64,000 nucleotides of DNA from Sphingopyxis sp. OPL5. GTDB lineage: Bacteria > Pseudomonadota > Alphaproteobacteria > Sphingomonadales > Sphingomonadaceae. The stretch spans positions 3,032,001 to 3,096,000 of the forward strand of contig NZ_CP060725.1 in NCBI RefSeq assembly GCF_003797775.2, given 5' to 3'. Below, one piece after another: positions 33,045 through 53,628 of this stretch; the first letter of the stretch is position 1, and every line of letters starts with the position of its first letter. A program made the translations under genes and the position numbers. The notes under the pieces were generated by a model that saw only the letters and a program-made list of their open reading frames with translations, searched no databases and had not been told where the DNA came from.

Positions 33045-33181
33045 GACGTTTCCCTATGCCAGCGCCGCCTGATTTGCCAAGGGGCGACGTCGCCAGCACC
33101 TTCGTATCCGGCCTACGTATGCGCGTTGCATTCACGCGGTCCCTCCGCCATTTCTGCCGACGGATATTCAAGGGGACGATT

Positions 33182-34645: not shown

Positions 34646-34657
34646 TCGGGCTCCTTC

Positions 34658-34838
34658 CCTTCTCCCCTTGAGGGAGAAGGATACGGAGCCTTGCGCCGCA
34701 GGCGCTAGGCGCAGTTGGACGAGGGGTTGCGAGCCCTTGGCTCGCGCGGTCGCTGGGCGACCGCAACCCCTCACCCAGCTTCGACTAAGCGGCTGCGCCG
34801 CCAAGTCTTCGCAACCCTCTCCCTCAAGGGGAGAGGGG
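34658..34838. repeat. Intergenic inverted-repeat element, CTCCCTCAAGGGGAG family, copy 1
   Basis: A roughly 180-base imperfect palindrome begins CCTTCTCCCCTTGAGGG and ends CCCTCAAGGGGAGAGG. It closely matches, in opposite orientation, the element at 53453-53628. It fills nearly the entire zwf-edd gap and runs to within 15 bases of the edd start, so its right end may form part of the edd leader. Confidence 0.85.
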
Positions 34839-34852
34839 ATCAGGAAATACCC

Positions 34853-36694
34853 ATGACCAGTCTCCACCCCACCATCGCCGCGGTCACCGACCGCATCATC
34901 GAACGCAGCGCCACGCGCCGCGCGGCCTATCTCGACCTGATGGACCGCCAGCGCGAGGCGGGAACGAACCGCGGCAACCTGTCGTGCGGCAACCTCGCGC
35001 ACGGCTTTGCGGCCTCGGGCGAGGACAAGCCCGCGATCCGGTCGGGCGCCGAAATGAACATCGGCATCGTCACCAGCTACAACGACATGCTGTCGGCGCA
35101 TCAGCCCTATGGCCGGTATCCCGAGCAGATCAAATTGTTCGCACGCGAAGTGGGCGCGACGGCGCAGGTCGCGGGCGGCGTTCCCGCGATGTGCGACGGC
35201 GTGACGCAGGGGCAGGCGGGCATGGACCTGTCCTTGTTCAGCCGCGACAATATCGCGCAGGGCACCGTGATCGCGCTCAGCCATGCGATGTTCGAGAGCG
35301 CGCTGCTACTCGGCATCTGCGACAAGATCGTTCCGGGGCTGCTCATCGGCGCGCTGCGTTTCGGGCACCTGCCGCAGATTTTGATCCCCGCCGGGCCGAT
35401 GCCCTCGGGCCTCGCGAACAAGGAAAAGCAGCGCGTCCGCCAGCTTTATGCTGAAGGGAAAGCCACTCGCGACGAACTGCTCGAAGCCGAGGCGGCGAGC
35501 TATCATGGCGCGGGTACCTGCACTTTCTACGGCACCGCGAACAGCAATCAGATGATGATGGAGCTGATGGGGCTGCATATTCCCGGCAGCGCCTTCACCA
35601 ATCCCGGTACCAAGCTGCGGCAGGAACTGACGCGCGCCGCGACGCATCGCATCGCGGAGATCGGCTGGGACGGTGAGGATTATCGCCCGCTGTCGCGCTG
35701 CGTCGATGAGAAAGCGATCGTCAACGCGGCGATCGGCCTGCTCGCGACCGGCGGATCGACCAACCATGCGATCCATCTGCCCGCGATCGCGCGCGCGGCG
35801 GGGATTATCATCGACTGGCAGGATTTTGACGAATTCAGCCACGCGGTGCCGCTGCTGGCGCGCGTCTATCCGAACGGCGCGGGCGATGTGAACAATTTCC
35901 ATGCGGCGGGCGGCATCGGCTTTGTGGTGCGCGAACTGCTCGATGCGGGGCTGCTGCATGACGACGTGTTGACCGTCGGTGGGACGATGGCCGATTATTC
36001 GGCCGAGCCCATGCTGGTCGAGGACGAACTTCACTGGCAGGCGGCGCCCGCGAAAAGCCGCGACGACGCCATCCTCCGCCCCGTCGCGACGCCTTTTTCG
36101 CCCGATGGCGGGATGCGCCTGCTCGCGGGCAATCTCGGCCGCGCGATCATCAAGACCAGCGCGGTCGCCGAGGATCGCTGGACGATCGAGGCGCCGTGCC
36201 GGATCTTCGATACCCAGGACGCGGTGCTCGCGGCGTTCAAGGCGGGCGAACTCGAACGCGATGTGATCGTCGTCGTGCGCTTTCAAGGACCGCGCGCCAA
36301 CGGCATGCCCGAACTGCACAAGCTGACCCCGGCATTGGGCGTGTTGCAAGATCGCGGTTTCCGCGTTGCTCTCCTCACTGACGGCCGCATGTCCGGCGCC
36401 AGCGGCAAGGTGCCGGCGGTGATCCATTTGTCGCCCGAGGCCCTGCCGGGGACCGACGGTGTCAGCGGCCCGCTCGCCTATTTGCAGGACGGCGACATCG
36501 TCCGTGTCTGCGCGGTGACCGGCGAAGTCGTGGCGCTCGTGGACGAAACCCTATGGGCCGCCCGCACGCCCGCCGTCGCCCCGCCGCCCGCGCTGGGCGT
36601 CGGCCGCGAATTGTTCGCGCTGTTCCGCATCCATGCCGATGAAGCCGAAAAGGGCGGGTCGGCGGTCTTGGCGGCGATGGAGACCGTGACCTAA
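34853..36694 (+). CDS. edd: Phosphogluconate dehydratase
   Basis: This 613-aa iron-sulfur dehydratase (IlvD/Edd family) converts 6-phosphogluconate to KDPG. Family marks include the Cys-containing [24 protein letters not shown] and GGSTNHAIH, with [15 protein letters not shown] near the C-terminus. The length fits Edd rather than the shorter IlvD. The ATG at 34853 is preceded by CAGGA. It is followed by eda after a short palindromic repeat. Confidence 0.97.
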
Positions 36695-36696
36695 TC

Positions 36697-36774
36697 CGTC
36701 GCCCCCGCGAAGGCGGGGGCCGCCATCGGCCTCGCGCCACCTTGCCAACGGCCCCCGCCTTCGCGGGGGCGACG
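36697..36774. repeat. Palindromic repeat between edd and eda (GCCCCCGCGAAGGCGGGGGC type)
   Basis: Perfect 25-base arms at 36697-36721 and 36750-36774 can form a very stable hairpin. It lies just downstream of edd and 12 bases before the eda ATG. Its GC-rich stem could limit read-through or protect the edd transcript. Confidence 0.85.
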
Positions 36775-36786
36775 AAGGAAAAAGAC

Positions 36787-37410
36787 ATGACCGACAAGTC
36801 CATCGACCAGATCATGCGCCTCGCCCCCGTCATTCCGGTGATCGTCATCGACCGGGTCGAAGACGCGGTGCCGATGGCGGAAGCGCTCGTCGCGGGCGGC
36901 CTGCCGGTGCTCGAAGTCACGCTGCGCACCCCCGCCGCGCTCGATGCGCTGACCGCGATGAAGGCGGTGAAGGGCGCGATCGTCGGCGCGGGCACCGTGC
37001 TCGACCCCGCGATGCTCGCCAGTGCGATCCATGCCGGCGCCGAATTCATTGTGTCGCCAGGGCTCACCGACAATCTCGGCAAGGCGGCGGTGGCGAGCGG
37101 CATTCCTTTCCTGCCCGGCACCGCGAACGCCGGCGATATCATGCGCGGGATGGACCTCGGCCTCGACCGCTTCAAATTCTTTCCCGCTGCGACCAGCGGG
37201 GGCATCCCGGCCTTGAAAGCGCTCGCGGGCCCCTTCGGCCAGGCGCGTTTCTGCCCGACCGGCGGCATCACCCCCGCGACGGCGCTCGACTGGCTCGCCC
37301 TCGACGCCGTGCTGTGCGTCGGCGGCAGCTGGGTGGTTCCGTCGGGGCCGCTCGACCCGGCGCGGATCGAGGGGCTGGCACGGGAGGCGTCGGCGCTTTC
37401 GCGCCATTGA
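36787..37410 (+). CDS. eda: KDPG aldolase (2-dehydro-3-deoxyphosphogluconate aldolase)
   Basis: This 207-aa class I aldolase cleaves KDPG to pyruvate and glyceraldehyde-3-phosphate. It carries LEVTLRTPAAL, the Glu/Lys active-site stretches VGAGTVLD and RFKFFPAATSGG (Schiff-base Lys in FKFFPA), and CPTGGI. AAGGA precedes the ATG at 36787. It closes the Entner-Doudoroff set. Confidence 0.97.
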   Translation: MTDKSIDQIMRLAPVIPVIVIDRVEDAVPMAEALVAGGLPVLEVTLRTPAALDALTAMKAVKGAIVGAGTVLDPAMLASAIHAGAEFIVSPGLTDNLGKAAVASGIPFLPGTANAGDIMRGMDLGLDRFKFFPAATSGGIPALKALAGPFGQARFCPTGGITPATALDWLALDAVLCVGGSWVVPSGPLDPARIEGLAREASALSRH

Positions 37411-37477: not shown

Positions 37478-39049
37478 GTGCCGAGACCGCAGCCGCATCT
37501 GGAAGAAGTTCTCGCGTCCGAGCCCGGGCCGCATATCGCTGCGCTGTTCGATTTCGACGGCACGATCATCTCGGGCTACTCGGCGACCGCGATGCTGCGC
37601 GAGAAATTCCAGCGCCGCGAAATGTCGGTCGAGGAAATCGCCGAAACCGCACAGATTATCGCGCAGCACAGCCTCGGCACGATCGGCTTTTCGGGGCTGA
37701 TGTCGGGCGCTGCAAAGTTCATGAAGGGTGTCGAAGAAGAAAGCTTCATCGAGTTCGGCGAGGAACTCTACAAGAAGCATATCGCGCGCAAAATCTATCC
37801 CGAAGCGCGCGCGATCATCGAGGCGCATCAGGCCAAGGGCCACCGCGTCGCGATCATTTCGTCAGCGACGATCTACCAGATCGAACCGACCGCGCGCGAC
37901 CTTGGCATCGAACATATCAAATGCTCGGCCTATGAGATCGAGGATGGGGTGTTCACCGGCGACATCATCCGGCCTTTGTGCTTCGGCGAGGGCAAGGTGC
38001 TCGCCGCCGAGGAACTGGCCGCAGAGTTCGGCCTCGATCTCGATCAGAGCTTTTTCTATTCGGACAGCGACGACGATATCGAACTGCTCGAACGCGTCGG
38101 CAAACCGCGCCCGCTCAACCCGAACCTCAAGCTGAAAGCCATCGCCGAGGAAAACGGCTGGCCGGTGCAGCGCTTCGGCAGCCGCGGTACCCCGTCGTGG
38201 GTCGACTATACCCGCACCATTTATGCCACCGGGTCACTCGTCGGCGCCTTTGCCGCGGGCCTGCCGATCTGGGCGCTGACCCGCTCGCAGCGCGAGGCGG
38301 CGAATTTCTCGATCGGGCTGTTCGGCGACTTCGCGACCGCGATCACCGGCGTCGAGCTCGAGGTCGAGGACGAGAAAAATCTCTGGTCGTCGCGCCCTTG
38401 CGTCTTCATTTTCAACCACCAGAGCAAGGCGGACGTGATGATCCTCGCCAAGCTTATCCGCCGCGACATGGGCGGGGTGGGCAAGAAAGAGATCAAGGAC
38501 ATCCCCATCCTCGGCAAGCTGATGGAATGGGGCGGCACCGTCTTCGTCGATCGCGCCGACGGCAAGAGCGCGATCAAGGCGATGGAGCCCTTGGTCGACG
38601 CGATCAAGGTCGAAGGCAAGTCGATCTGCATCTCGCCCGAGGGTACGCGCAGCCTGACGCCGAAGCTCGAGCCGTTCAAGAAGGGCGCTTTTCATTTGGC
38701 GATGCAGGCGGGGGTGCCGATCGTCCCGATCGTCATTCATAACGCCACCGACGTCGCGCCGAAGAATGAGTTCGTGATGCGCCCCGCGACGGTACGGGTC
38801 ACCGTGCTGCCGCCGGTCGACACGTCGGAATGGACGCCGCGGACGATCAATGGTCATGTTCGCGATGTGCGGAACATGTTCCTGCGCACGCTCGGCCAGC
38901 CCGAAGAGACGGTGGCGGAATCGGTGGCGACCGAACCTGCACCCGAGGCGCACGCGAAAAAGGCGCCGAAGAAGCCCGCGGCGAAACCCGCAGCCAAGAA
39001 AAAGCCGCACGCGAAAAAGCCGGCGGCCCGCAAGGGAAAGACCGGCTAA
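37478..39049 (+). CDS. Bifunctional HAD-IB hydrolase/1-acylglycerol-3-phosphate acyltransferase (PlsC)
   Basis: This 523-aa fusion has a HAD subfamily IB phosphatase domain (nucleophile motif FDFDGTI at 24-30; SSAT near 128-131; DSDDD near 196-200). A PlsC acyltransferase domain follows, with NHQSKAD at 313-319 (HX4D) and SPEGTR near 386-391. From about residue 490 it ends in a Lys/Ala/Pro tail of histone H1 type. PlsC acylates lysophosphatidate to phosphatidate; the HAD half may dephosphorylate a lipid phosphate, which is inference. The GTG at 37478 follows GGGGAGACAG. The same fusion is known from M. tuberculosis Rv2483c beside plsB2. It starts the acylglycerol locus, three bases before plsB. 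Confidence 0.93.
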   Translation: MPRPQPHLEEVLASEPGPHIAALFDFDGTIISGYSATAMLREKFQRREMSVEEIAETAQIIAQHSLGTIGFSGLMSGAAKFMKGVEEESFIEFGEELYKKHIARKIYPEARAIIEAHQAKGHRVAIISSATIYQIEPTARDLGIEHIKCSAYEIEDGVFTGDIIRPLCFGEGKVLAAEELAAEFGLDLDQSFFYSDSDDDIELLERVGKPRPLNPNLKLKAIAEENGWPVQRFGSRGTPSWVDYTRTIYATGSLVGAFAAGLPIWALTRSQREAANFSIGLFGDFATAITGVELEVEDEKNLWSSRPCVFIFNHQSKADVMILAKLIRRDMGGVGKKEIKDIPILGKLMEWGGTVFVDRADGKSAIKAMEPLVDAIKVEGKSICISPEGTRSLTPKLEPFKKGAFHLAMQAGVPIVPIVIHNATDVAPKNEFVMRPATVRVTVLPPVDTSEWTPRTINGHVRDVRNMFLRTLGQPEETVAESVATEPAPEAHAKKAPKKPAAKPAAKKKPHAKKPAARKGKTG

Positions 39050-39052
39050 GCG

Positions 39053-41401
39053 GTGGCCGACGGCACGCCCCGCATTCCGATCGTGGCGGAAGAGGCGGCC
39101 GACCGGCTCTATATCATCGACGCGCGCAATGGCGTCGAGCGCCGGTTGCTGCTCGACTGGATTCACGCGACCGCGGGGGACAGCGAGCCCGCCTGGACCA
39201 GCCTCGACATCGAGGATGACGATCATGCACTGCCGCTCGACATGCTGCGGGCGCGGCTCGACGGATCGCCGTCGCGCCAGGTCGTGCCGCTGCGCGTCGC
39301 CTGGCGCATCCCTGGGTTCGAGCGCGACCGTGCGCTCAAATTCCGCCACCTGATTTTCGGCGATCCGCGCCATCCCGGGCCGCTCCGCTCGCGCCTGATC
39401 CTGCTCCGCGACCGGCGGCGCGCGCAGATTCTGGTCGGCGAGGCGGCGTCGCTCGACACGCTGCGGACCCGCTATTGCGCGCAGACCGGCGGCGGCGATG
39501 GCGAGGGGACCGACAGCCCCGAATTCGCGGGCTTTGTCGCGCGGCAGGCCGCGCTCGCGCTCGACGTCGCCGAACGCGGGGTACGCGGCACGCGCTACAA
39601 GGTGCCGCGCTTCGTCGCCGACTCCTTACGCACCAATCCCAAGTTCCGCGCCGCGCTCGCCGAGCTGGCCGTGACGCTTGGGCGCCCCGTCGGCGACCTC
39701 TACCGCGAGGCGCGACCGCTGATGAAAGAGGTCATCGCGCGGCCTTCGGCGCTGTTCCTCGACCTGCGCGCGCGCGTCGACCGCATGATGTTCGGCGGCT
39801 ACGCGCCCGAGATGGAGGTCGACGCCGCCGAAATCGCCAAGCTGCGCTCGATCCTGCGCGAACATCCCACCGCGATCCTGTTCACCCACAAGACCTATAT
39901 CGACGGCGCGACCCCCAGCCGGCTCGCCTATGAGAATGACCTGCCGATGCTGCACCTGTTCGGGGGTGCGAACCTCGACATCGCGGTGATGGGCGAGTTC
40001 TACCGCCGCTCGGGCATGATCTTCGTGCGCCGCAGCTTCCAGGACCAGCCGGTCTACAAGCTGGTGCTGCGCCATTACATTGCCTGGCTGCTCGCCAAGC
40101 GCTTCCCGCTCAGCTGGGCGTTCGAGGGAACGCGGTCGCGCCTCGGCAAGCTGATGCCGCCGAAGTACGGCCTGATGAAATATGTCCTCGACGCCGCGCA
40201 TGCGACGGGGACCAAGGGGGTGCATTTCGTGCCCTTCGTCACCAGCTTCGACCTGATCCTCGACGTCGAGGAATATGCCGCCGAGCAGACGGGGCGGGTG
40301 AAAAAGGCCGAAAGCCTCGGCTGGTTCGTCGGCTATATGCGCAACCTCAAGAAACCGTCGGGGCGTATCCGGCTCGACATCGGCAAGCCGGTGGTGATCG
40401 AGGATGCGCCGGGACCCGAAGACAAGCGCGCGCTCGAAAAGATCGCTTTCTCGGTCGCGGTCGAGGCCAATCGCGTCACCCCGCTGACCGTGTCGTCGGT
40501 GATGTGCCTGATCCTGCTCGGTACCGCACCGCGCGGCGTCACCGCCGCGGAACTGCTCGCAACGATCGGAGCGCTCAAGGAATGGGCGCGCGCGCGCGGC
40601 ATCCGGCTGAGCAAGGAACTCGAAAGCGCCGACGACCGGGCGCTGTCGAGCACCGTCGACACGCTGGTCGAGAGCGGGCTGCTGACGCGATACGAAGCGG
40701 GCAGCGAAAATGTCTATTCGATCGACCCCGCCAAGCATCCGATGGCGAGCTATTACCGCAATATCATCGTCCATCATTTCCTCGACCGTGCGATGATCGA
40801 GATCGCGCTGTTTCAGCTCCGCGATGCCGACAGCGGCGATGCGACCGCCGCTTTCTGGGCGCATGTCGATCGCCTGCGCGACCTGTTCAAATTCGAATTC
40901 TTCTATCCGCCGCGCGACGAACATCATGCCGCGATCGCGGCCGAACTGGCACGCATCGACCCGACCTGGGCGAAGCGGCTCGCGAGCGGCGACCGCGGCG
41001 TGGCGCAGCTCATCCGCCGCTGCCAGCCGCTCGTCGGCCATGCGGTGCTGCTTTCCTTTGCCGAGGCCTATTCGGTGGTTGCCGACATCTTGTCGCGCGC
41101 GCGGCCGGGCGAGGCGGTCGATGACAAGGCCATCGAGGCGGCCGCGCTGGTCGAGGGCAAGCAGGCCTGGCTGCTCCGCCGAATCAGCAGCGAGGCGGCG
41201 ATCGGCAAATTGCTCTTTGCCAACGGCTTGTCGCTGATGCGCCATATGGGGCTCGCCGAACCCGCGACCCCCAACATCCTCGCCGCGCGTCGCGCGCTGC
41301 TGATGGAACTGCGCGGGCTCGCCAACGTCATGGAATCGATGCGCCTCGCAACTCTGGCGCTCGCCGACCGATTGCCGACCACAGGAGGACAGGATGCTTA
41401 A
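39053..41401 (+). CDS. plsB: Glycerol-3-phosphate acyltransferase
   Basis: This 782-aa PlsB-family enzyme puts the first acyl chain on glycerol-3-phosphate at the membrane. The HX4D catalytic motif appears as FTHKTYIDGATPSRLAYE, followed by GMIFVRRSFQD and the WAFEGTRSR block (family motif III), with VPFVTSFD after. The size is that of PlsB (about 800 aa), not PlsY. A GTG at 39053 begins it three bases after the HAD-PlsC stop. Its 3' end overlaps the acyltransferase gene by eight bases. The C-terminal 300 residues are the regulatory-type PlsB extension. Confidence 0.93.
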   Translation: MADGTPRIPIVAEEAADRLYIIDARNGVERRLLLDWIHATAGDSEPAWTSLDIEDDDHALPLDMLRARLDGSPSRQVVPLRVAWRIPGFERDRALKFRHLIFGDPRHPGPLRSRLILLRDRRRAQILVGEAASLDTLRTRYCAQTGGGDGEGTDSPEFAGFVARQAALALDVAERGVRGTRYKVPRFVADSLRTNPKFRAALAELAVTLGRPVGDLYREARPLMKEVIARPSALFLDLRARVDRMMFGGYAPEMEVDAAEIAKLRSILREHPTAILFTHKTYIDGATPSRLAYENDLPMLHLFGGANLDIAVMGEFYRRSGMIFVRRSFQDQPVYKLVLRHYIAWLLAKRFPLSWAFEGTRSRLGKLMPPKYGLMKYVLDAAHATGTKGVHFVPFVTSFDLILDVEEYAAEQTGRVKKAESLGWFVGYMRNLKKPSGRIRLDIGKPVVIEDAPGPEDKRALEKIAFSVAVEANRVTPLTVSSVMCLILLGTAPRGVTAAELLATIGALKEWARARGIRLSKELESADDRALSSTVDTLVESGLLTRYEAGSENVYSIDPAKHPMASYYRNIIVHHFLDRAMIEIALFQLRDADSGDATAAFWAHVDRLRDLFKFEFFYPPRDEHHAAIAAELARIDPTWAKRLASGDRGVAQLIRRCQPLVGHAVLLSFAEAYSVVADILSRARPGEAVDDKAIEAAALVEGKQAWLLRRISSEAAIGKLLFANGLSLMRHMGLAEPATPNILAARRALLMELRGLANVMESMRLATLALADRLPTTGGQDA

Positions 41402-42983
41402 ACAGCTCAGCGCGCAGGACGCCCAGTTCCTCTACACCCAGACCGCGAACAATCTGACCCACATCATGGGCGTCTATATCTACGATCCCTCGACCGCGCC
41501 GGGCGGCTTCGTGCGCTTCAAGGACATCATCCGCCACGTCGAAAGCCGCGTCCACACCTCGCCCCTGTTCAAGCGGCGGCTGCACCGGCTGCCCTTCGAC
41601 ATGGACCATCCCTATTGGGTCGAGGACGAGCATTTCGACATCGAGGCGCATATGAGTCATGCGCGCCTGCCCGAGCCCGGCGACTGGCGGCAGTTCTGCA
41701 TCGCGGTCGCGCGCTATTTCTCGAAGCCGATGGATATGAACCGCCCGCTGTGGGACATTTATATCATCGAGGGGCTCGACCGGATTCCGGGGATTCCGAA
41801 GGGCAGCTTCGCGATGCTCCACCGCGTCCACCATGCCGCGGTCGACGGCGCCTCGGGCGCGCACGCCTTCATCGCGATGAGCGACATCGACGCACAGGGT
41901 ACGCCAGCGATTCCCGAGCCGCCGCCGTCGGAGGATCTTGGCCGGGCACCGTCGAGCGCCGAGACGCTGACCCGCGCCTGGTCGGCATCGATGCAGTCGC
42001 CGGTGAAGTTCGTGAACGCGCTGCTCAAGGTTTCGCCCGCGATCGTCGCCTCGGCGCGCAAGTCGATGGCCGAGGGCGGGATGACCGCCGGGGTCCCCGA
42101 AACGCGCTTCAATGCGCCCGTCGGCCCGCACAAGATGTTCGACGCGACCACCGTCGCGCTCGCCGATGTCGCGGCGATCCGCAAGAAGGTGCCGGGCGCG
42201 ACGGTCAATGACGTCGTGCTCACCACCGTCGGCGGCGCGCTGCGCAAATATCTCGCGAAGCACAAGGAACTGCCGAAGGAGAGCCTCGTCGCGGTCGCGC
42301 CGATCAATCTGCGCGGTAAGGAAAAGGGAGCAGGGAAAGCATCGACCCCCGGCAACCAGGTGTCGGCGATGAGCGTGCCGATCCGCACCGATATCGCCGA
42401 TCCGCTGGAGCGGCTCGCGGCGGTGCGCGACTATACGGTCGAGGCCAAGGAAGCGAAGGCCGGGGTCAGCGCGCGGATCATGACAGACCTGTCGCAGCAT
42501 ATTCCGGGCGCGACGATGGCGGCGGTCGCGCGCATCCTGACCAGCGAACGCTTCGCCGTGCGCGGCACCAACCTCTTCATCTCGAACGTGCCTGGCGCGC
42601 AGGTGCCGCTCTATCTCGCGGGTGCGCAACTGGTGCAGCAGCATGGCATGGCGCCGCTCGCGAACAATATGGGGCTGTTCATCGCGACGCCGAGCTATAA
42701 CGGCCGCATTGCCTTTTCGATCATCGGCGAGCGCGCGATCATGCCCGACATCGCCTTTTTCCGTGCGTGCATCGACGAAAGTTTCGCCGACCTGATGGCG
42801 GCGGAACCCAAGCCCGAAAAGCCCGCACCAACACCCAAAGCCGCTACGGCAAAGCCGAAAGTGGCGGCCAAACCCAAGGCTGCAGTGAAGCCCGCGGCCA
42901 AAAGCGGGACGAAACCCACCGCCAAGCCCGCACGGAAACCGGTTGCCAAAGGCAACGCAACCCGCAAGACTCCGAAAAAATAA
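41394..42983 (+). CDS. Wax ester synthase/acyl-CoA:diacylglycerol acyltransferase (WS/DGAT)
   Basis: This 529-aa member of the Acinetobacter AtfA/mycobacterial Tgs family makes triacylglycerol from diacylglycerol and acyl-CoA, or wax ester from a fatty alcohol. The condensation motif HHAAVDG (HHxxxDG) lies at 146-152, and the family PLW (RPLWDIYIIEGL) is near 117-128. The C-terminal block NLFISNVPGAQVPLYLAGA is also present. The last 60 residues are a Lys/Ala/Pro-rich tail (KPKVAAKPKAAVKPAAKSG) like that of the HAD-PlsC protein. An overlap of eight bases couples it to plsB. Confidence 0.94.
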   Translation: MLKQLSAQDAQFLYTQTANNLTHIMGVYIYDPSTAPGGFVRFKDIIRHVESRVHTSPLFKRRLHRLPFDMDHPYWVEDEHFDIEAHMSHARLPEPGDWRQFCIAVARYFSKPMDMNRPLWDIYIIEGLDRIPGIPKGSFAMLHRVHHAAVDGASGAHAFIAMSDIDAQGTPAIPEPPPSEDLGRAPSSAETLTRAWSASMQSPVKFVNALLKVSPAIVASARKSMAEGGMTAGVPETRFNAPVGPHKMFDATTVALADVAAIRKKVPGATVNDVVLTTVGGALRKYLAKHKELPKESLVAVAPINLRGKEKGAGKASTPGNQVSAMSVPIRTDIADPLERLAAVRDYTVEAKEAKAGVSARIMTDLSQHIPGATMAAVARILTSERFAVRGTNLFISNVPGAQVPLYLAGAQLVQQHGMAPLANNMGLFIATPSYNGRIAFSIIGERAIMPDIAFFRACIDESFADLMAAEPKPEKPAPTPKAATAKPKVAAKPKAAVKPAAKSGTKPTAKPARKPVAKGNATRKTPKK

Positions 42984-42988
42984 ACCAA

Positions 42989-43254
42989 GCGGGGAGAGTG
43001 CAGGGAATGCGCCATCGAGGTTTGAAGCGATTTTGTTCAGGTCTAGGAAGCAAGGCGAAGGCATATGTCAATATTCCGAGGCTTGCTGACGACGACATGG
43101 ACAAAATCGGTCAAATCCCGAAGGGACGTCAAAATGGCTTCGATCTCGGACGGAAATGCCCTTGGAAACAGAACCACTGTTCCCGGCGGACATTTCCGTC
43201 CGATATCTTCGCCATTTTGACGCCTCGAAGGCGCATTCCCTGCACTCTCCCCGC
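42989..43254. repeat. Large structured non-coding element with nested inverted repeats
   Basis: Outer arms of 32 bases (42989-43020 and 43223-43254) match with one mismatch. Inside, 43127-43222 forms a second long imperfect hairpin (left arm CGTCAAAATGGCTTCGAT, right arm end GCCATTTTGACG), with loop near AACCA. The hairpin abuts the outer right arm. No open frame or transposase lies within. It separates the WS/DGAT gene from the patatin gene and resembles a MITE or an RNA structure. Confidence 0.75.
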
Positions 43255-43272
43255 CTCTCGCAGGATCACTGA

Positions 43273-44721
43273 ATGCTTTTCACCCCGACGCTCAGCGCCG
43301 ACCGCGATCTCGTGACCGCGTCCGATTATATCGCCTGGACCAAGGCGGCGCGCGAGCATGACAAGAAATCGGGGATGCAGGTCTGGCGCGATGCCGACGA
43401 AAGCAAGCATTTCGATTATAAGGCGATCCGCGCGCGGCTCGAACGGCTGCGCAGCCTGTCGGCGGCGGGTGACGTCAAGGGGCTGCTCTTCGTTCTCAAC
43501 GAGGGCATCCACGGCAATATCGACGGCATGGGGCACGAGCGCCTCTATTCGAAGGCGCGGTTTGGTACGAAGCGGCTGATCGAGGAGTATGTCGCAGAGG
43601 TTGTAGCGGCGCTCGACAGGATCGCGGCGTCGCGCAGCATCGGACGCGAGGAAAAACGCGACTTTTTCCGCCGCGCCCAGCATTGCTACGGCCGCTCGGC
43701 ACTGTTGCTCTCGGGCTCGGGAAGCTTTCTTTTTTTCCATATCGGCGTCGTGAAAGCGCTTTGGGAAGAGGGCGTGCTGCCCGCGATCATGTCGGGGGCC
43801 AGCGGTGGGTCGATCGTCGCGGCGGTCGTCTGCACCCGCAAGGATGCTGACATCGGCGCCTTCCTCGAAAGCGACCGCCTCGCCAACCCGGCGCGCGGGC
43901 CCGACACGCGGCGTCTCGCGCCCGACGAGGTCCGCGCCCGGCTTGCCGACCTGATCCCCGACCTGACCTTTCAGGAGGCCTATGAGGTCAGCGGCCGCCA
44001 CCTCAACGTCTCGGTCGCGCCCGCCGAGAAGCATCAGAACGGGCGGCTGCTCAATGCGATCACCGCACCGAACGTCCTGATCCGCGAAGCCGTACTCGCG
44101 TCCTGCGCGGTGCCCGGCGTCTTCCCGCCGGTGATGCTGATGGCGCGCGACGACAAGGGCGCGCGCGTGCCGTACCAGCCCGACCGGCGCTGGGTCGACG
44201 GGTCGGTGACGCACGACATCCCGACCAAAAGGCTCGAACGCCTGTATGGCGTCAATCATCATATCGTCAGCCAGGCGAACCCGATCGCGCTGCCCTTCGC
44301 CAGCGACACCCGCAAGCAGATGGCGCCGATCGAGGCCATCCAGCATGCGTCGATGGCGACCTTCAAGGCGTGGCTGAACGCCAATATGGTGATCTTCCAG
44401 AAACCGCTCGAGATGATCCCGCCGCTCAACAGCATCGCGAACATGGCGCGCTCGGTGATCAATCAGGAATATACCGGTGACATCAACATCATCCGCCCGC
44501 CCAAATTCTGGTCGCCGACCAAGATTTTGAGCGACCTGGCGCAGGACGATATCGACGAACTGATCGACACCGGCCAGCGCACCGCCTGGCCCAAGGTCGA
44601 AATGGTGCGCACCCAGACCGCGATCAGCCGCGCGCTCGAAGGGATTTTGGCGAAGCTCGACAAGGCGGGCGACGATGGTCCCGGCCACCGCAGCACGGCG
44701 CTGAAAAAGGCGGTGCGCTGA
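43273..44721 (+). CDS. DUF3336/patatin triacylglycerol-lipase-like protein
   Basis: This 482-aa protein has an N-terminal DUF3336 region (about 10-130) and a patatin domain, the architecture of yeast Tgl3/4/5 and plant SDP1 triacylglycerol lipases. The nucleophile Ser177 lies in GASGG, and the dyad Asp309 in WVDGSVTHDIP. The oxyanion segment reads LLLSGSGSFLFFHIG where relatives have a Gly-rich GGxxxG, so activity may be altered. It would hydrolyse stored acylglycerols. It follows the structured element and directly precedes the monoacylglycerol-lipase-like gene, two bases away. Confidence 0.9.
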   Translation: MLFTPTLSADRDLVTASDYIAWTKAAREHDKKSGMQVWRDADESKHFDYKAIRARLERLRSLSAAGDVKGLLFVLNEGIHGNIDGMGHERLYSKARFGTKRLIEEYVAEVVAALDRIAASRSIGREEKRDFFRRAQHCYGRSALLLSGSGSFLFFHIGVVKALWEEGVLPAIMSGASGGSIVAAVVCTRKDADIGAFLESDRLANPARGPDTRRLAPDEVRARLADLIPDLTFQEAYEVSGRHLNVSVAPAEKHQNGRLLNAITAPNVLIREAVLASCAVPGVFPPVMLMARDDKGARVPYQPDRRWVDGSVTHDIPTKRLERLYGVNHHIVSQANPIALPFASDTRKQMAPIEAIQHASMATFKAWLNANMVIFQKPLEMIPPLNSIANMARSVINQEYTGDINIIRPPKFWSPTKILSDLAQDDIDELIDTGQRTAWPKVEMVRTQTAISRALEGILAKLDKAGDDGPGHRSTALKKAVR

Positions 44722-44723
44722 CG

Positions 44724-45575
44724 ATGGCCTCGGGCGCGCTCGTTCTGCCTCAAGGGTCGGCGGGCGCGGGGGCCGCGCTCTACGTCACCCACTGGCTGCC
44801 TGCCGGATTGCCCAAGGCGGTCGTGCTGCTCGCGCATGGCTACGCCGAACATGCCGGGCGCTATGAGCATGTCGCGAAGCGACTCACCGATGCGGGATAT
44901 GCCGTCTACGCGGTCGACCATTGGGGCCATGGCCGGTCCGACGGGACGCCGGGCTTCGTGCCGCGCTTTACCGCGTTCACCGATGGCATGGCCGAACTGC
45001 TGACCCTCGTCGAGGTCAACCATGGCGATACGCCGCGGCTGCTGCTCGGGCACAGCATGGGCGGGCTGATCTCGACGCTGTTCCTGATCGAGCGGCAGTC
45101 GGCGTTCGTCGCCGCCGCTTTGTCGGGACCCGCGATCGTCCCCGGCGCGCCGCCGTCGCGCTTCACCGTCTGGATCAGCCGGTTCCTGTCGCGTTTCTTC
45201 CCGCGGCTCGGGGTGCTGGCTTTGGATGCCAATGGCGTCAGCCGCGATCCCGCTGTGGTCGCTGCCTATCTCGCCGACCCGCTGGTCTACACCGGCAAGA
45301 TCGGCGCGCGGCTCGGCAAGGAGTTCATGGACGCGATGGCTGCGGCGCAGGCCGGCGCGCCGAAAATCACGCTGCCGATCCTGCTCCAGCATGGTGAGAA
45401 GGACAGCCTGGCGTCGGTCGCGGGGTCGCAATATCTGTTCGACCATGTCGGATCGGCGGACAAGATTCTCAAAATCTATCCCGGCCTGTTCCACGAAGTC
45501 TACAACGAGCCTGAACAGGGTGCGGTGCTGGACGATCTGGTGGGCTGGTTCGACGCGCATGTTCCGCCGCGTTGA
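44724..45575 (+). CDS. Alpha/beta hydrolase, monoacylglycerol-lipase-like (serine aminopeptidase S33 family)
   Basis: This 283-aa enzyme has the family pattern VVLLAHGYAEHAGRYEHVAKRL, DHWGHGRSDG and nucleophile LLLGHSMGGLI (GHSMGG). The later Asp and His (LLQHGEKDSLA and LFHEVYNEPE) complete the triad. It resembles human and mycobacterial monoacylglycerol lipases (Hydrolase_4). It would release the last fatty acid from monoacylglycerol, completing the chain begun by the patatin two bases upstream. Confidence 0.88.
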   Translation: MASGALVLPQGSAGAGAALYVTHWLPAGLPKAVVLLAHGYAEHAGRYEHVAKRLTDAGYAVYAVDHWGHGRSDGTPGFVPRFTAFTDGMAELLTLVEVNHGDTPRLLLGHSMGGLISTLFLIERQSAFVAAALSGPAIVPGAPPSRFTVWISRFLSRFFPRLGVLALDANGVSRDPAVVAAYLADPLVYTGKIGARLGKEFMDAMAAAQAGAPKITLPILLQHGEKDSLASVAGSQYLFDHVGSADKILKIYPGLFHEVYNEPEQGAVLDDLVGWFDAHVPPR

Positions 45576-45591
45576 GCTCACCCCAAATCGC

Positions 45592-45667
45592 GTTTGTGTC
45601 GAGCGTCGTCGAGACACGCGAAGGCACGCGCTCCCTATAAGTGTCTCGACTACGCTCGACACGAACG
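45592..45667. repeat. Intergenic inverted repeat, GTGTCGAGCGT/ACGCTCGACAC type
   Basis: Arms of about 26 bases (45592-45617 and 45641-45666) are nearly perfect inverse copies with a short spacer. It lies between the two alpha/beta hydrolase genes. It belongs to a different family from the other repeats in this window. Confidence 0.8.
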
Positions 45668-45691
45668 GATTGAGAGGACAGTCTTAAAGTC

Positions 45692-46624
45692 ATGCGTATC
45701 CTCCTCATCCTGATCTTCGCGCCGCTGATCGCGCTGGCGTTGCTCTATTTCCTATTCCCCGGTCGCCTTGTCGCCTTCGCCCGCTGGGCGCTGCGCAAGC
45801 GCGGCGGCACGGTGCAGAAGAGCGTCGCGGTCGACGGCCGCGACTGGCCCTACCTCGAGGGCGGCGACCCCGCCAAACCCTTGCTGCTGCTCGTCCACGG
45901 CTTTGCTGGCGACAAGGACAACTGGTCGATGATCGCGCCTTACCTGACGCGCGACTACCATATCGTCGCGCCCGACCTGCCGGGCTTCGGGCAGAACGAG
46001 CGCAACCCGCAGCTCGCCTATGACATCGCGGCGCAGACCGCGCGGCTCAAGCAATTCGCCGATGCGCTCGGCCTCGACCGCCCGCATGTCGCAGGCAACA
46101 GCATGGGCGGCTGGATCGCGCTACGCTATGCGATCGATTATCCGGACGCGCTCGCGACGCTGACCCTGCTCGACAACGCCGGGGTCAACGGCGCGAACGA
46201 AAGCGACCTGCAGAAACAGGCGGCGAACGAGGATTACAACCCGCTCATCATCGCCAATCTGGAAGATGCCGACCGGCTGGTCGCGATGGTGGTCCATAAA
46301 CCGCCCTATCTACCGCCGCGGCTCAAGCCTGTCTTTTATGCGGACGCGCTCAAATATCGCGACCAGCTCGACGCCATCTTCTGGGTCATCGCGACCGAGG
46401 GCCGCGACCATCCGCTCAACGACCGGCTCGGCGAGGTCAAGGTGCCGACGCAGATCATCTGGGGCCGCCATGACCGGCTGCTCGACGTCAGCTGCGTGCC
46501 GGTGCTCGAAGCCGGGATCGCGGGGAGCGAGAGCCATATCTTCGAGCATGTCGGCCATGTCCCGATGATCGAGGACCCCAAGGCAACTGCCGCGGTGATG
46601 AAGGGCTTTCTTGCCAAGCACTGA
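45692..46624 (+). CDS. Alpha/beta hydrolase with N-terminal membrane segment
   Basis: This 310-aa hydrolase begins with a hydrophobic segment (MRILLILIFAPLIALALLYF) that may anchor it to the membrane. The family core follows: LLLVHGFAGDKDNW, DLPGFGQNE, nucleophile GNSMGGW, and a late Asp/His pair (WGRHDRLLD, EHVGHVPMIED). The Ser motif is GNSMGG, typical of lipase/esterase-like hydrolases. The substrate is unknown, but position next to the lipid genes suggests an ester. gpsA follows 37 bases later. Confidence 0.88.
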   Translation: MRILLILIFAPLIALALLYFLFPGRLVAFARWALRKRGGTVQKSVAVDGRDWPYLEGGDPAKPLLLLVHGFAGDKDNWSMIAPYLTRDYHIVAPDLPGFGQNERNPQLAYDIAAQTARLKQFADALGLDRPHVAGNSMGGWIALRYAIDYPDALATLTLLDNAGVNGANESDLQKQAANEDYNPLIIANLEDADRLVAMVVHKPPYLPPRLKPVFYADALKYRDQLDAIFWVIATEGRDHPLNDRLGEVKVPTQIIWGRHDRLLDVSCVPVLEAGIAGSESHIFEHVGHVPMIEDPKATAAVMKGFLAKH

Positions 46625-46661
46625 TTGAGCCGCCACTCTCCCGAAAAACAGGGAGAGGTTC

Positions 46662-47663
46662 ATGCGGTTGAAGGTGGGGCTGCTCGGCGGGGGGAGCTGG
46701 GGCACGACGGTGGCGTCGGTGGTGTCGCGCAATGCGCCGATCACTTTATGGGCGCGCGATGCCGAGACGGTCGAGAGCATCAACAGCGCGCGCGAGAACC
46801 GCAAATATCTCCCCGGCATCACCCTGCCGTCGGCGCTCCGCGCGACGAACGACATGGCCGAGGTCGTCGCGGGTGCCGACGTCCTCATCATGGGCGTCCC
46901 CTCGCACAGCTTCCGCGGCGTGCTCGAAGAAGCCAGAGCGCATCTCCGCCCCTGGGTTCCGGTGATCAGCCTGACCAAGGGCCTCGAACTGTCGTCGGGC
47001 AAGCGCATGACCCAGCTGATCGAGGAAATCCTCCCCGGCCATCCCGTCGGCGTCCTCACCGGCCCGAACCTCGCGCGCGAGATCATGAGCGGGCAGGCGG
47101 CGGCGAGCGTGCTGTCGATGGAGGACGAGATCGTCGTCCGCGCGCTGCAGCCGGTGTTCCACTCGGGCCTGTTCCGCGTCTACACCAACACCGACCTGCT
47201 CGGCTGCGAACTCGGCGGGGTGCTCAAGAATATCATCGCGATCGCGGTCGGCATGGGCGACGGGCTGGGGGCAGGCGACAACACCCGCTCGGCGTTGATG
47301 ACGCGCGGGCTCGCCGAGATCACGCGGCTGGGCGTCGCGATGGGCGGGCGCGCCGAGACCTTCGCCGGGCTCACCGGCATGGGCGACCTGATCGCGACCT
47401 GCACCAGTCCCTTGAGCCGCAACCGCCATGTCGGGGTCGAGTTGGGCAAGGGGCGCAAGATCGACGAGATCATCGCGGGCATGAACATGGTCGCCGAAGG
47501 GGTGAAGAGCGCGCCGACGGTGATCGCGCTCGCCGAAAAACACGGGCTCGCGATGCCGATCGCGCAGGATGTCTATGACGTGACGCAGGGCAAACGCGAC
47601 GCGCAGGAGGTGTTTCGCGGGCTGCTGCGATCGTCGGTGGGGGACGAAGCGCATCCCGGTTGA
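46662..47663 (+). CDS. gpsA: Glycerol-3-phosphate dehydrogenase [NAD(P)+]
   Basis: This 333-aa soluble enzyme makes glycerol-3-phosphate from DHAP, the backbone for phospholipids and acylglycerols. It has the cofactor motif LLGGGSWGTTVA, VPSHSFR, the strongly conserved GPNLAREI, and GLTGMGDLIATC. The length is normal. The upstream GGGAGAGG gives a good ribosome site for ATG 46662. It supplies substrate to the plsB gene in the same strand run. Confidence 0.97.
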   Translation: MRLKVGLLGGGSWGTTVASVVSRNAPITLWARDAETVESINSARENRKYLPGITLPSALRATNDMAEVVAGADVLIMGVPSHSFRGVLEEARAHLRPWVPVISLTKGLELSSGKRMTQLIEEILPGHPVGVLTGPNLAREIMSGQAAASVLSMEDEIVVRALQPVFHSGLFRVYTNTDLLGCELGGVLKNIIAIAVGMGDGLGAGDNTRSALMTRGLAEITRLGVAMGGRAETFAGLTGMGDLIATCTSPLSRNRHVGVELGKGRKIDEIIAGMNMVAEGVKSAPTVIALAEKHGLAMPIAQDVYDVTQGKRDAQEVFRGLLRSSVGDEAHPG

Positions 47664-48406: not shown

Positions 48407-49561
48407 TCAATAGCTCCGCGGCAGCCCCAACACATGTTCCGCCACGTACGACAGGATCATGTTCGTGCTGATCGGCGCAACCTGATAGAGCCGCGTTTCG
48501 CGGAACTTGCGTTCGATGTCATATTCGGCGGCAAAGCCGAAGCCGCCGTGCGTCTGGATGCAGGCCTCGCCCGCCGCCCAGCTTGCCTCGGCGGCCAGCA
48601 TCTTGGCCATATTCGCCTCGGCCCCGGCATTGTCGCCCGCTTCATATTTGGCGATGCCGTCGTGGACGAGCAGTTCGGCGGCGCGCATCTGCGCATAGGC
48701 GCGCGCAATCGGGAATTGCACACCCTGGTTCTGGCCGATCGGGCGGCCGAAGAGCACGCGCTCCTTCGCGTATGAACTCGCCTTGTCGATGAACCACTTG
48801 GCATCGCCGATGCATTCGGCGGCGATCAGCAGCCGTTCGGCGTTCATGCCCGACAGGATGTAGCGGAACCCCTTGCCCTCTTCGCCGATCAGGTTCGCGG
48901 CGGGGATGCGCATATTGTCGAAGAAGATTTCGGTCGTCGCATGGTTCATCATCGTGTCGATCGGACGGATCGACAGCGTGCCCGCGGCGAGCGCTTCCTT
49001 CATGTCGACGAGGAAGACCGACAGGCCCTCGGTGCGGCTTGCCGCCTCTTCGCGCGGGGTGGTGCGCGCGAGCAGGATCATCAGGTCGCTATGCTCGGCG
49101 CGGCTGGTCCACAGCTTCTGGCCGTTGACGATATAGTCGTCGCCGTCCTTCTTCGCGACGGTCTTGAGGCTCAGCGTGTCGGTGCCGCTCGTCGGTTCGG
49201 TGACCCCGAACGCCTGCAGCCGCAATTCGCCCGTCGCGACGCGCGGAAGGTAACGCGCCTTCTGCTCCTCCGACCCGTGGCGCAGCACGGTGCCCATCAC
49301 ATACATTTGCGCGTGCACCGCACCGCCGTTGCATCCCTGGCGCTGGATCTCCTCAAGGATCGCGGCGGCTGCCGAAAGCGGTAGCCCCGCGCCGCCATAT
49401 TCCTCGGGGATCAGCGCTGCGAGATAACCCGCCTCGCCGAGCGCCGCGACGAATTCGCTCGGATAGGCGCGGACCTTGTCTTTCGCCTGCCAATAGGGGC
49501 CGGGAAACTGAGCGCAGAGCTTGGCGACCTCTTCGCGGATGTCCGAATAATCCTGCATCAT
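48407..49561 (-). CDS. Acyl-CoA dehydrogenase
   Basis: This 384-aa FAD enzyme introduces the alpha-beta double bond in an acyl-CoA. The family stretches are LIPEEYGGAGLPLS, the FAD-binding VTEPTSGTDT, and the C-terminal TRLYQVAPISTNMILS with its catalytic-type Glu region (IQTHGGFGFAAEYDIERKFRE). The chosen ATG at 49561 overlaps the thiolase stop as ATGA, so the pair is translationally coupled. It is the last gene of the large beta-oxidation run. Confidence 0.94.
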   Translation of the reverse strand: MMQDYSDIREEVAKLCAQFPGPYWQAKDKVRAYPSEFVAALGEAGYLAALIPEEYGGAGLPLSAAAAILEEIQRQGCNGGAVHAQMYVMGTVLRHGSEEQKARYLPRVATGELRLQAFGVTEPTSGTDTLSLKTVAKKDGDDYIVNGQKLWTSRAEHSDLMILLARTTPREEAASRTEGLSVFLVDMKEALAAGTLSIRPIDTMMNHATTEIFFDNMRIPAANLIGEEGKGFRYILSGMNAERLLIAAECIGDAKWFIDKASSYAKERVLFGRPIGQNQGVQFPIARAYAQMRAAELLVHDGIAKYEAGDNAGAEANMAKMLAAEASWAAGEACIQTHGGFGFAAEYDIERKFRETRLYQVAPISTNMILSYVAEHVLGLPRSY

Positions 49562-50769
49562 GCTGCCTCGAAAATCGCGGCGATGCCTTGGCCGCCGCCG
49601 ATGCACATCGTCTCCAGACCGTAGCGTCCGCCGCGCCGATGCAGTTCGCGGGTCAGGTTGGCGAGAATGCGCCCGCCGGTCGCGCCGATCGGATGGCCGA
49701 GCGAGATCCCCGATCCGTTGACGTTGAGCATCGCCATACGGCTGTCGTCCTCCGACCAGCCCCAACCCTTGAGGCAGGCGAGCACCTGCGGCGCAAAGGC
49801 CTCGTTGAGCTCGACCAGGTCGATGTCGTTCCAGCCAAGGCCGTTGCGTGCGAAAAGCCGTTCGACCGCGGGAACCGGGCCGATGCCCATGCGGCTGGGA
49901 TCGCAGCCCGCCGCCGCCGAGCTGTGATAGAAGGCGATGGGTTCGAGGCCGAGTTCCTCGAGCTTGTCCTCGGCGACGACGAGGCAGGCCGCCGCCGCAT
50001 CATTCTGCTGGCTCGCATTGCCCGCGGTGACGACACCGCCTTCGAGCGGGCGGAGCTTGCCGAGGCTTTCGAGTGTCGCATCGGCGCGGTAGCCTTCGTC
50101 ATGGTCGAAGATGACCGGATCGCCCTTTTTCTGCGGCACCGAGACGGGCACGAGTTCGTCGTCGAACAGGCCCTTTTTCCATGCCGCCGCCGCGTTCTGG
50201 TGGCTGCGCACCGCATAGGCGTCGCATGCTTCGCGGCTGATGCCATAATCCTTGGCGAGGTTCTCGGCGGTCTCGATCATGCCGCTGATGACGCCGAAGC
50301 GCTCGACCGGCTGCGACATCACGCGCCCGCGCGTCAGCCGGTCGTGGAGCGTCAGATTGCCCGCGCGCACGCCCTTGCGGATGTCGGTGCTGTAATGTTC
50401 GACGTTCGACATCGATTCGACCCCGCCCGCGATGACGACGTCGGACATGCCGGTCTGGACCATCATCGCGGCGTTGACGATCGCTTGCAGTCCCGATCCG
50501 CAACGGCGGTCGAGCTGATAGCCCGGCACCTCGATCGGCAGGCCCGCGGCGAGCCACGACCAGTGACCGATGCACGGCGCCTCGCCATTACCATAGCCTT
50601 GCGAAAAGACGACGTCGTCGACGCGTGCCGGATCGATCTTGGTGCGTTCGACCAGCGCCTTCAGGATGACGGCGCCGAGGTCGCCCGCGGTCAGGCTCGA
50701 CAGCGCGCCGCCGAATTTGCCGACGGGGGTACGGATGGGGGCGACGATGGCGGCGCGGCGAAGGGTCAT
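49558..50769 (-). CDS. Acetyl-CoA C-acyltransferase (thiolase)
   Basis: This 403-aa degradative thiolase has the nucleophile Cys in LDRRCGSGLQA, the His motif GHPIGATGGR and the second Cys in MCIGGGQGIA. It cleaves a beta-ketoacyl-CoA with CoA to release acetyl- or propionyl-CoA. It is one of two thiolase genes in this cluster; the other is of SCP2 type. Its ATG follows the CoA-transferase run after a repeat. Confidence 0.95.
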   Translation of the reverse strand: MTLRRAAIVAPIRTPVGKFGGALSSLTAGDLGAVILKALVERTKIDPARVDDVVFSQGYGNGEAPCIGHWSWLAAGLPIEVPGYQLDRRCGSGLQAIVNAAMMVQTGMSDVVIAGGVESMSNVEHYSTDIRKGVRAGNLTLHDRLTRGRVMSQPVERFGVISGMIETAENLAKDYGISREACDAYAVRSHQNAAAAWKKGLFDDELVPVSVPQKKGDPVIFDHDEGYRADATLESLGKLRPLEGGVVTAGNASQQNDAAAACLVVAEDKLEELGLEPIAFYHSSAAAGCDPSRMGIGPVPAVERLFARNGLGWNDIDLVELNEAFAPQVLACLKGWGWSEDDSRMAMLNVNGSGISLGHPIGATGGRILANLTRELHRRGGRYGLETMCIGGGQGIAAIFEAA

Positions 50770-50820
50770 GTCAGTCTCCGAATTGGACGGCGGTCAAAGT
50801 CTGTCGGGCGGTAATTTCAT

Positions 50821-50910
50821 CGTCACCCCGGACTTGATCCGGGGGCCCGCTGCCCGATGGACAATCATCCTCACCAAAAAGCGGGACCCCGGGTCAAGCC
50901 CGGGGTGACG
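50821..50910. repeat. Intergenic inverted-repeat element, copy 2 of the CCCGGGCTTGACCCGGG family
   Basis: Bases 50821-50844 (CGTCACCCCGGACTTGATCC) and their inverse at 50886-50910 enclose a short loop. The family occurs also at 29594-29668. It lies between thiolase and CoA transferase. Confidence 0.85.
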
Positions 50911-50928
50911 AAAGAGTGGGGATGCATG

Positions 50929-52125: not shown

Positions 52126-52131
52126 GCATCA

Positions 52132-52220
52132 CCGCTCCCCGACGAAAGCCGGGGCCCAGAGCGTCATGGAGCCACGGCTGCCCGGTGCCGCATGGGTCCC
52201 GGCTTTCGCCGGGGAGCGGC
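52132..52220. repeat. Intergenic inverted repeat, GCTCCCCGACGAAAGCCGGGG family
   Basis: Near-inverse arms at 52132-52154 and 52199-52219 lie between the CoA transferase and SCP2-thiolase genes. The family differs from the other repeats in this window. Confidence 0.8.
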
Positions 52221-52226
52221 ATTAGC

Positions 52227-53432: not shown

Positions 53433-53452
53433 AAATAAACCTCCAACTAACC

Positions 53453-53628
53453 CCCTCTCCCCTTGAGGGAGAGGGTTGCGAAGACTTGCGAGCTTGCTCG
53501 CTAGTCGTAGCTGGGTGAGGGGTTGCGGTCCAAAGGACCGCGCGAGCTTCGCTCACAACCCCTCATCCAAGTCCGCCTCATCGCTTCGCGATAAGGCTCC
53601 CTATCCTTCTCCCTCAAGGGGAGAAGGA
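53453..53628. repeat. Intergenic inverted-repeat element, CTCCCTCAAGGGGAG family, copy 2
   Basis: A roughly 175-base imperfect palindrome, opposite in orientation to the copy at 34658-34838 and closely similar (shared CTTGAGGGAGA, GGTTGCG and CCTCATCC blocks). It fills the whole gap between the SCP2-thiolase and the HMGS-DUF35 gene. Confidence 0.85.

Follow-up and report, generated by a model that had tools for sequence, protein, structure and literature searches.

The locus considered here is a run of seven genes at 37478-47663 of a 64,000-nucleotide stretch of the Sphingopyxis sp. OPL5 genome (4.68 Mb, one contig), hereafter the window, and it raises the question of whether these genes form one system that both fills and empties a store of neutral lipid, where such a system belongs among known ones, and what the lysine-rich tails on two of its enzymes might do. 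A sequence-only reading had described it as a triacylglycerol (TAG) and wax ester synthesis and mobilisation locus of mycobacterial type. Our analysis makes it likely that the locus is a self-contained unit for the synthesis and mobilisation of TAG, in which the tails on the enzymes themselves would serve as anchors; we assign the reactions from knowledge of the families and propose binding by the tails only by analogy.

All seven open reading frames lie on the + strand, and Pfam and NCBIfam profiles with curated cut-offs recovered every family that had been predicted from the sequence, with catalytic motifs intact. The block opens with a HAD-PlsC fusion (37478-39049; PF12710, 120 bits; PF01553, 109 bits), followed after a three-base gap by a long-form PlsB glycerol-3-phosphate acyltransferase (GPAT) with a GPAT_C domain (39053-41401; NF002886, 920 bits against a cut-off of 721). 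The PlsB gene shares eight bases with that of a wax ester synthase/diacylglycerol acyltransferase (WS/DGAT; 41394-42983; TIGR02946, 396 bits against a cut-off of 310), so that the three core genes, previously called adjacent and overlapping, overlap at this second junction but not at the first. On their 3' side, as predicted, follow a DUF3336-patatin lipase of Tgl/SDP1 architecture (43273-44721; PF11815, 113 bits; PF01734, 76 bits), a monoacylglycerol-lipase-like (MGL-like) hydrolase (44724-45575; Hydrolase_4, solved mycobacterial relatives at E ~1e-59), a third hydrolase of the alpha/beta type with an N-terminal hydrophobic segment (45692-46624; Abhydrolase_1, kin of 6i8w and ABHD6), and gpsA, for an NAD(P)H glycerol-3-phosphate dehydrogenase (46662-47663; NF009098, 531 bits against a cut-off of 436). 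The spacing from WS/DGAT to patatin is 289 bases, about 265 of which are an insertion resembling a miniature inverted-repeat transposable element (MITE); the later gaps are 2 bases (patatin to MGL-like), 116 (MGL-like to third hydrolase) and 37 (third hydrolase to gpsA). The window thus encodes together a GPAT, a 1-acylglycerol-3-phosphate acyltransferase (AGPAT), a phosphatase domain and a WS/DGAT, the make-up of a Kennedy-pathway TAG block. A scan of the locus for promoters and terminators gave nothing exceeding shuffled sequence.

The residues expected of the active sites are conserved across the alignments. In the HAD-PlsC fusion these are D25, D27 and K173 of the HAD domain and H314/D319 of the HX4D motif; the HAD nucleophile is kept in 65 of 67 rows (two gaps) and the HX4D of the PlsC domain in 66 of 67 (one gap), and an AlphaFold2 model shows two confident domains with a mean pLDDT of 82. 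We propose from sequence that the HAD domain is a phosphatidate phosphatase and the PlsC domain an AGPAT. The corresponding motifs are kept in all 95 PlsB rows (HX4D), all 50 WS/DGAT rows (HHxxxDG), 29 of 30 patatin rows (GxSxG and D309, one gap) and all 35 MGL-like rows (S111 and H257). The WS/DGAT carries HHxxxDG, PF03007 and PF06974 together with its TIGR02946 match, and among solved structures it resembles the diacylglycerol O-acyltransferase 6chj (E 6e-45). The patatin protein has PF11815 followed by a patatin domain with GxSxG and DG; no solved relative was found for it by sequence at E 0.001, and we regard it as a putative TAG lipase. The best solved relatives of the MGL-like hydrolase are mycobacterial monoacylglycerol lipases (7p0y, 204 bits; 6eic, 203 bits, named for Mycobacterium tuberculosis), and the next best, at about 151 bits, are monoglyceride lipase entries that we take to be human. 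The third hydrolase matches 6i8w, presumably the membrane phospholipase PlaF of Pseudomonas aeruginosa, with 215 bits over residues 2-307, the N-terminal hydrophobic part included, and ABHD6 (7ots) with 118 bits; it is probably membrane-anchored.

Consideration of these activities together suggests how the unit would work. GpsA would supply glycerol-3-phosphate, which PlsB and the PlsC domain would acylate to phosphatidate; the fused HAD domain would take off the phosphate, and the WS/DGAT would add the third acyl group to give TAG, or a wax ester only if given a fatty alcohol. The patatin, the MGL-like enzyme and the third hydrolase would break the store down to glycerol and fatty acids. Genes for filling and for emptying are indeed encoded together, as had been claimed, and the order of synthesis set, lipases and gpsA is kept as a unit in relatives. 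A search for a fatty acyl reductase dedicated to wax ester synthesis was uninformative, as PF07993 has matches in 14 of 14 control genomes. A second gpsA, 42% identical to that of the block, lies elsewhere in the genome (G000:C1:2260463). Polyhydroxyalkanoate (PHA) dominates the discussion of storage in sphingomonads, and matches to PHA synthase at G000:C1:1177637 and 619335 indicate that OPL5 may keep PHA alongside TAG.

The survey of gene neighbourhoods supports conserved linkage. Of the 249 Sphingomonadaceae genomes sampled, 8 have the full seven-gene order, namely that of the window, three other Sphingopyxis and four of a second genus (g84); in one of the eight loci (L022) the sequence covered stops within gpsA, and the MGL-like gene and the third hydrolase are some 1.4 kb apart. 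Conservation in these seven further genomes argues that the order is not a matter of chance. PlsB of this type occurs in 10 of the 249 genomes and 4 of 91 genera, nine of the ten scoring above the curated cut-off. DUF3336 occurs in 12 of the 249: 9 of the 10 that have this PlsB versus 3 of the 239 others (Fisher p 2e-13, uncorrected for kinship and not a clean probability, because the genomes are related). The view that such loci are not typical of sphingomonads holds for the whole block, which is rare, but WS/DGAT taken alone is present in 75 of the 249 genomes, and a Kennedy-pathway block from this family was published in 2023 (PMC10351704). At the class level, PlsB exceeded 690 bits in 7 of 337 genomes, the window genome included; in a phylum sample of 348 genomes two exceeded the PlsB cut-off, both of this genus, and the remainder reached at most 253 bits. 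In two small genomes assigned to the same genus, this type of PlsB, DUF3336 and WS/DGAT are all missing. Among the 120 matches listed for the window PlsB, the named proteins are nearly all from Sphingopyxis, at 82-95% identity. If the reading of the block is right, a conserved unit that makes and burns TAG offers a clear genetic target in sphingomonads.

Diverged arrangements were also seen. The remaining two of the ten genomes with PlsB, G061 and G207, have gpsA, PlsB, MGL-like and HAD-PlsC genes with no WS/DGAT or patatin adjoining; G061 has a tailed WS/DGAT together with a DUF3336-patatin on a different contig. This version (L030, L031) groups with those of two alphaproteobacterial metagenome-assembled genomes (MAGs). 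Sphingomonadales bacterium EhC05 (L029/L158) has a second, diverged block in the order PlsC without HAD, patatin, PlsB, WS/DGAT, which lies near TonB-dependent receptor-like and acyl-CoA synthetase-like genes, as judged by eye.

Two of the synthesis enzymes end in H1-like tails, rich in lysine, alanine and proline, of the kind known from AlgP, PhaF and MLDS with their KPAA or PAKKA motifs. The last 60 residues of HAD-PlsC contain 12 K, 13 A and 8 P, with three KPAA and a net charge of +10 (tail at about residues 481-523, 38918-39046, + strand); those of the WS/DGAT (42801-42980, + strand) contain 16 K, 15 A and 12 P, with one KPAA and a net charge of +16. In the AlphaFold2 model residues 480-523 of HAD-PlsC have pLDDT below 50, weak evidence that this tail is disordered because the alignment had few rows there. 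To count tails we applied a fixed rule, in which the best 40-residue stretch within the last 160 residues must have K+R - 2(D+E) - hydrophobic/aromatic residues of at least 6, with at least 5 K. Across 91 loci the rule was passed by 29 of 58 HAD-PlsC and 23 of 44 WS/DGAT, by 1 of 27 patatins and by 3 of 787 other called genes, and by none of 173 other block proteins (0/87 PlsB, 0/42 gpsA, 0/27 MGL-like, 0/17 third hydrolases); these counts retain near-copies, and two of the loci (L028 and L115) come from the same genome. At each of three thresholds, a second rule showed a like contrast. When the score, without the K condition, was applied to the window and a sampled tenth of the genome, 4 of the 424 genes called there passed: HAD-PlsC, WS/DGAT, a 184-residue RF-1-domain protein and a probable wrong frame. 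The gene calls behind the 787 and the 424 are crude, being made from codon-position composition. Where both genes are present (45 loci, window included), 17 have both tails, 14 one and 14 none. The 14 Sphingopyxis-type rows all pass for the WS/DGAT, and 9 of them pass for HAD-PlsC. The two other WS/DGATs of the OPL5 genome have no tail. Among WS/DGATs that lie outside the seven-gene block in 20 other sphingomonad genomes (L213-L232, G061 included; regions picked by hand, mostly the best-scoring among 75 genomes and one per genus where possible), 14 pass, and the remaining six have shorter K/A/P stretches at the end or a score just under the rule. In one alphaproteobacterium (G451, L098) an H1-like tail sits on the DUF3336-patatin and neither synthesis enzyme is tailed. 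A limited literature search found no description of H1-like tails on HAD-PlsC or WS/DGAT lipid enzymes, and such tails are apparently undescribed.

What such tails may do is suggested by storage-granule proteins. In P. aeruginosa, polyphosphate granules are normally spaced only if AlgP has its KPAA tail, and the authors of that work raise tethering to the chromosome as a speculation (PMC9239181). In Rhodococcus jostii the C-terminal PAKKA region of MLDS is described as binding DNA and recruiting MLDS-bound DNA to lipid droplets (PMC5504291). The methylated lysine-rich end of HBHA is reported to bind phosphoinositides and to be needed for lipid inclusions (PMC6176652), and the proteins listed for lipid inclusions include Rv2483c and Rv2484c, the PlsC and triacylglycerol synthase of M. 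tuberculosis (PMC10699116). From these precedents we propose that the synthesising enzymes here carry their own anchor: the tails of HAD-PlsC and WS/DGAT would fix the droplet, as it grows, to a negatively charged surface, with DNA the most likely one and the phospholipid shell of the droplet or polyphosphate as possibilities. We further suggest, tentatively and by analogy, that the H1-like tails borne by the diacylglycerol- and TAG-making enzymes of sphingomonads and of related Alpha- and Gammaproteobacteria keep droplets tethered to the nucleoid while they are made. Synthesis and the positioning or partition of droplets would then fall to one protein, with no separate phasin or MLDS-type adaptor, and the tails would tie lipid-droplet biogenesis to nucleoid organisation in Proteobacteria; droplet placement and sharing at division would become directly testable.

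To place the block among its relatives, named genomes were scanned with a PlsB alignment; 467 relatives were confirmed and the best 80 loci used, the ranking being by similarity to the top row of that alignment, a G352 protein, rather than to the window. These best 80 come from gammaproteobacteria, Myxococcota, Binatia, Nitrospinota, Acidimicrobiia, Actinomycetes, Sphingomonadales and other alphaproteobacteria. Once Sphingomonadales are set aside, a Kordiimonadaceae MAG, a Lysobacterales MAG and Halieaceae show high identity to the window, and Actinomycetes some of the lowest. The Kordiimonadaceae MAG has the same five-gene order, at 62% (HAD-PlsC), 47% (PlsB), 59% (WS/DGAT), 49% (patatin) and 50% (MGL-like) identity. 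In 19 gammaproteobacterial loci with near-full HAD-PlsC the identities are 50-62% for HAD-PlsC and 39-49% for PlsB (one further locus, L172, has a PlsB only 34% identical), and in three Actinomycetes loci 37-41% and 32-34%. Unrooted trees were built for HAD-PlsC (52 rows), WS/DGAT (34 rows) and PlsB (52 of 95 rows, quick method). From the first two, and from the counts of changes in tail state, 13 loci of Sphingopyxis and the second genus were dropped as near-identical, and more from the PlsB tree; fragments (HAD-PlsC of L124 and L158, WS/DGAT of L158 and L128) were left out of the trees and retained in the two-tail locus count. All three trees place Sphingopyxis, genus g84 and two Novosphingobium MAGs in one group, which adjoins the Kordiimonadaceae and Lysobacterales MAGs inside a mostly gammaproteobacterial set, with Actinomycetes distant. 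The core genes thus appear to have moved as a group, in a block of proteobacterial type; sphingomonads may have taken it up from gammaproteobacteria, or it may be older, and the unrooted trees fit either. Composition was also tried as a mark of recent transfer and set aside: the GC content of the block (0.635-0.668) is like that of the rest of the window. One contig titled gammaproteobacterial (L124) falls among the sphingomonads and may be mis-binned.

The description as mycobacterial type was not borne out. That the locus was taken up from Actinobacteria is very improbable, although the same enzyme types are described as clustering in Rhodococcus and mycobacteria (PMC4850399, PMC10351704) and mycobacterial proteins are the best solved relatives of the MGL-like hydrolase. 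The gpsA and PlsB products also score above the cut-offs of NF009098 and NF002886, which we take to be mycobacterial models. We do not count these scores as an actinobacterial signal: Sphingopyxis comes top (949 bits) among the genomes searched with NF002886, and the score gives no direction because those genomes include no actinobacteria. Well-supported branches part the Actinomycetes from the block, and no grouping with actinobacterial sequences was found (Rhodococcus, Antrihabitans and Lolliginicoccus, without Mycobacterium); the Actinomycetes HAD-PlsC rows and the Rhodococcus WS/DGAT were flagged as long branches, and the WS/DGAT tree alone says little on Actinobacteria because Rhodococcus, on a very long branch, is the only one in it. 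Several observations weigh against a TAG unit with anchored enzymes itself. The genome's two further WS/DGATs and two PHA synthases could carry the main storage; about half of HAD-PlsC and WS/DGAT fail the tail rule, both fail in 14 of 45 loci and HAD-PlsC fails in 5 of 14 Sphingopyxis rows, and the tails could be neutral. In addition, the atf9-plsB-plsC operon of R. jostii RHA1, whose HAD domain was proposed as a phosphatase, is reported as expressed under nitrogen excess, with atf9 lower under nitrogen limitation, and is called housekeeping there (PMC4850399). By extension, the present block might feed membrane phospholipid, with TAG incidental and the lipases turning over membrane lipid, and the closeness of the third hydrolase to 6i8w would fit. 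We consider this improbable: the genome has three more PF01553 acyltransferase genes elsewhere as well as PlsY, which makes PlsB probably dispensable for membrane lipid; the 239 of 249 family genomes without PlsB of this type must make membrane lipid anyway; and DUF3336-patatin is tied to PlsB across genomes.

The tails admit two further explanations. They may be functionless ends produced by codon-repeat slippage or tolerated at unstructured C-termini, which would agree with their free variation in length and sequence, their patchy presence and the at least 6 and at least 7 changes of state on the HAD-PlsC and WS/DGAT trees. We regard this as rather unlikely, given that tails are nearly confined to these two enzymes among block and neighbouring genes, that their composition is conserved across very different lengths, that the DNA beneath them contains no tandem repeat of score 30 or more, and that most of the WS/DGATs from other sphingomonads have them too. 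Alternatively, the target of the tails may be not DNA but the inner membrane, polyphosphate or the phospholipids that coat the droplet, as the reported phosphoinositide binding of HBHA (PMC6176652) and the presence of AlgP on polyphosphate granules (PMC9239181) would allow. This possibility deserves some weight, although KPAA peptides have DNA-binding activity in vitro and each of AlgP, PhaF and MLDS has a link to DNA.

Comparison with known systems shows what is particular to a TAG unit of this kind. The Sphingomonadaceae block published in 2023 (scaffold S1-6153 and Parasphingorhabdus halotolerans JK6) likewise places WS/DGAT next to all the Kennedy-pathway genes, and beta-oxidation genes adjoin them; for Sphingomonadaceae the text, as covered here, names no lipase or tail, and the word patatin does not occur in the paper, though its gene list may hold more, and on this footing the lipases and tails are what differs here (PMC10351704). 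The same source describes similar sets in gammaproteobacteria and Actinomycetota, gammaproteobacterial clusters with gpsA adjoining GPAT in one and an alpha/beta hydrolase with a putative lipase in another, and refers to TAG accumulation by Sphingomonas sp. EGY1. In our loci the gammaproteobacterial Kennedy clusters (Halieaceae, Woeseiaceae, Arenicella) are, with the Kordiimonadaceae MAG, closest in the three trees; gpsA lies near PlsB in 18 of 25 and many are tailed, but a window-like WS/DGAT is found in only 9 of 25, an MGL-like gene in 3 and a patatin in 1, many of the contigs being short. The actinobacterial operon (RHA1; Rv2483c-Rv2484c) matches the three enzyme types, WS/DGAT, PlsB and AGPAT-HAD fusion. 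It differs in its order of WS/DGAT, PlsB, HAD-PlsC in Rhodococcus xishaensis (L177 only, with a weak 26% WS/DGAT match). In addition, none of the three Actinomycetes HAD-PlsC that we examined passes the tail rule, and the flanks of the same three loci, as covered, contain no window-like patatin or gpsA. AlgP, PhaF and MLDS share a C-terminal lysine-rich KPAA or PAKKA region on a storage-granule protein; to our knowledge none is an enzyme of granule synthesis, whereas in the Sphingopyxis block the biosynthetic enzymes themselves bear the tail. The eukaryotic DUF3336-patatin lipases Tgl3/4/5 and SDP1 have the domain architecture and catalytic dyad of the window patatin, which differs in being bacterial, a putative lipase, and placed inside a synthesis block.

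The MITE-like element between WS/DGAT and patatin (42989-43254, no strand) has 32-nucleotide inverted-repeat arms that are 97% complementary; three more partial copies lie in the genome (220-228 of 273 bases, 75-79%), and the site is empty in the three other Sphingopyxis compared. In OPL5 the insertion may uncouple expression of the genes that fill the store from that of the genes that empty it. Upstream of the block (31542-37410) are a glpD-like gene (31542-33044, - strand), zwf, and the Entner-Doudoroff genes edd and eda (34853-37410, + strand; edd-type dehydratase domains and KDPG aldolase); edd and eda lie next to the block in 10 of 17 Sphingomonadales loci, all of the Sphingopyxis type, and we infer that these upstream genes could supply NADPH and triose for lipid. 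Downstream, on the - strand at 48407-56815, genes for an acyl-CoA dehydrogenase, a thiolase, a CoA-transferase III, a thiolase-like protein, an OB-fold protein, a MaoC hydratase and a short-chain dehydrogenase/reductase form what looks like a set for the degradation of fatty acids or CoA esters.

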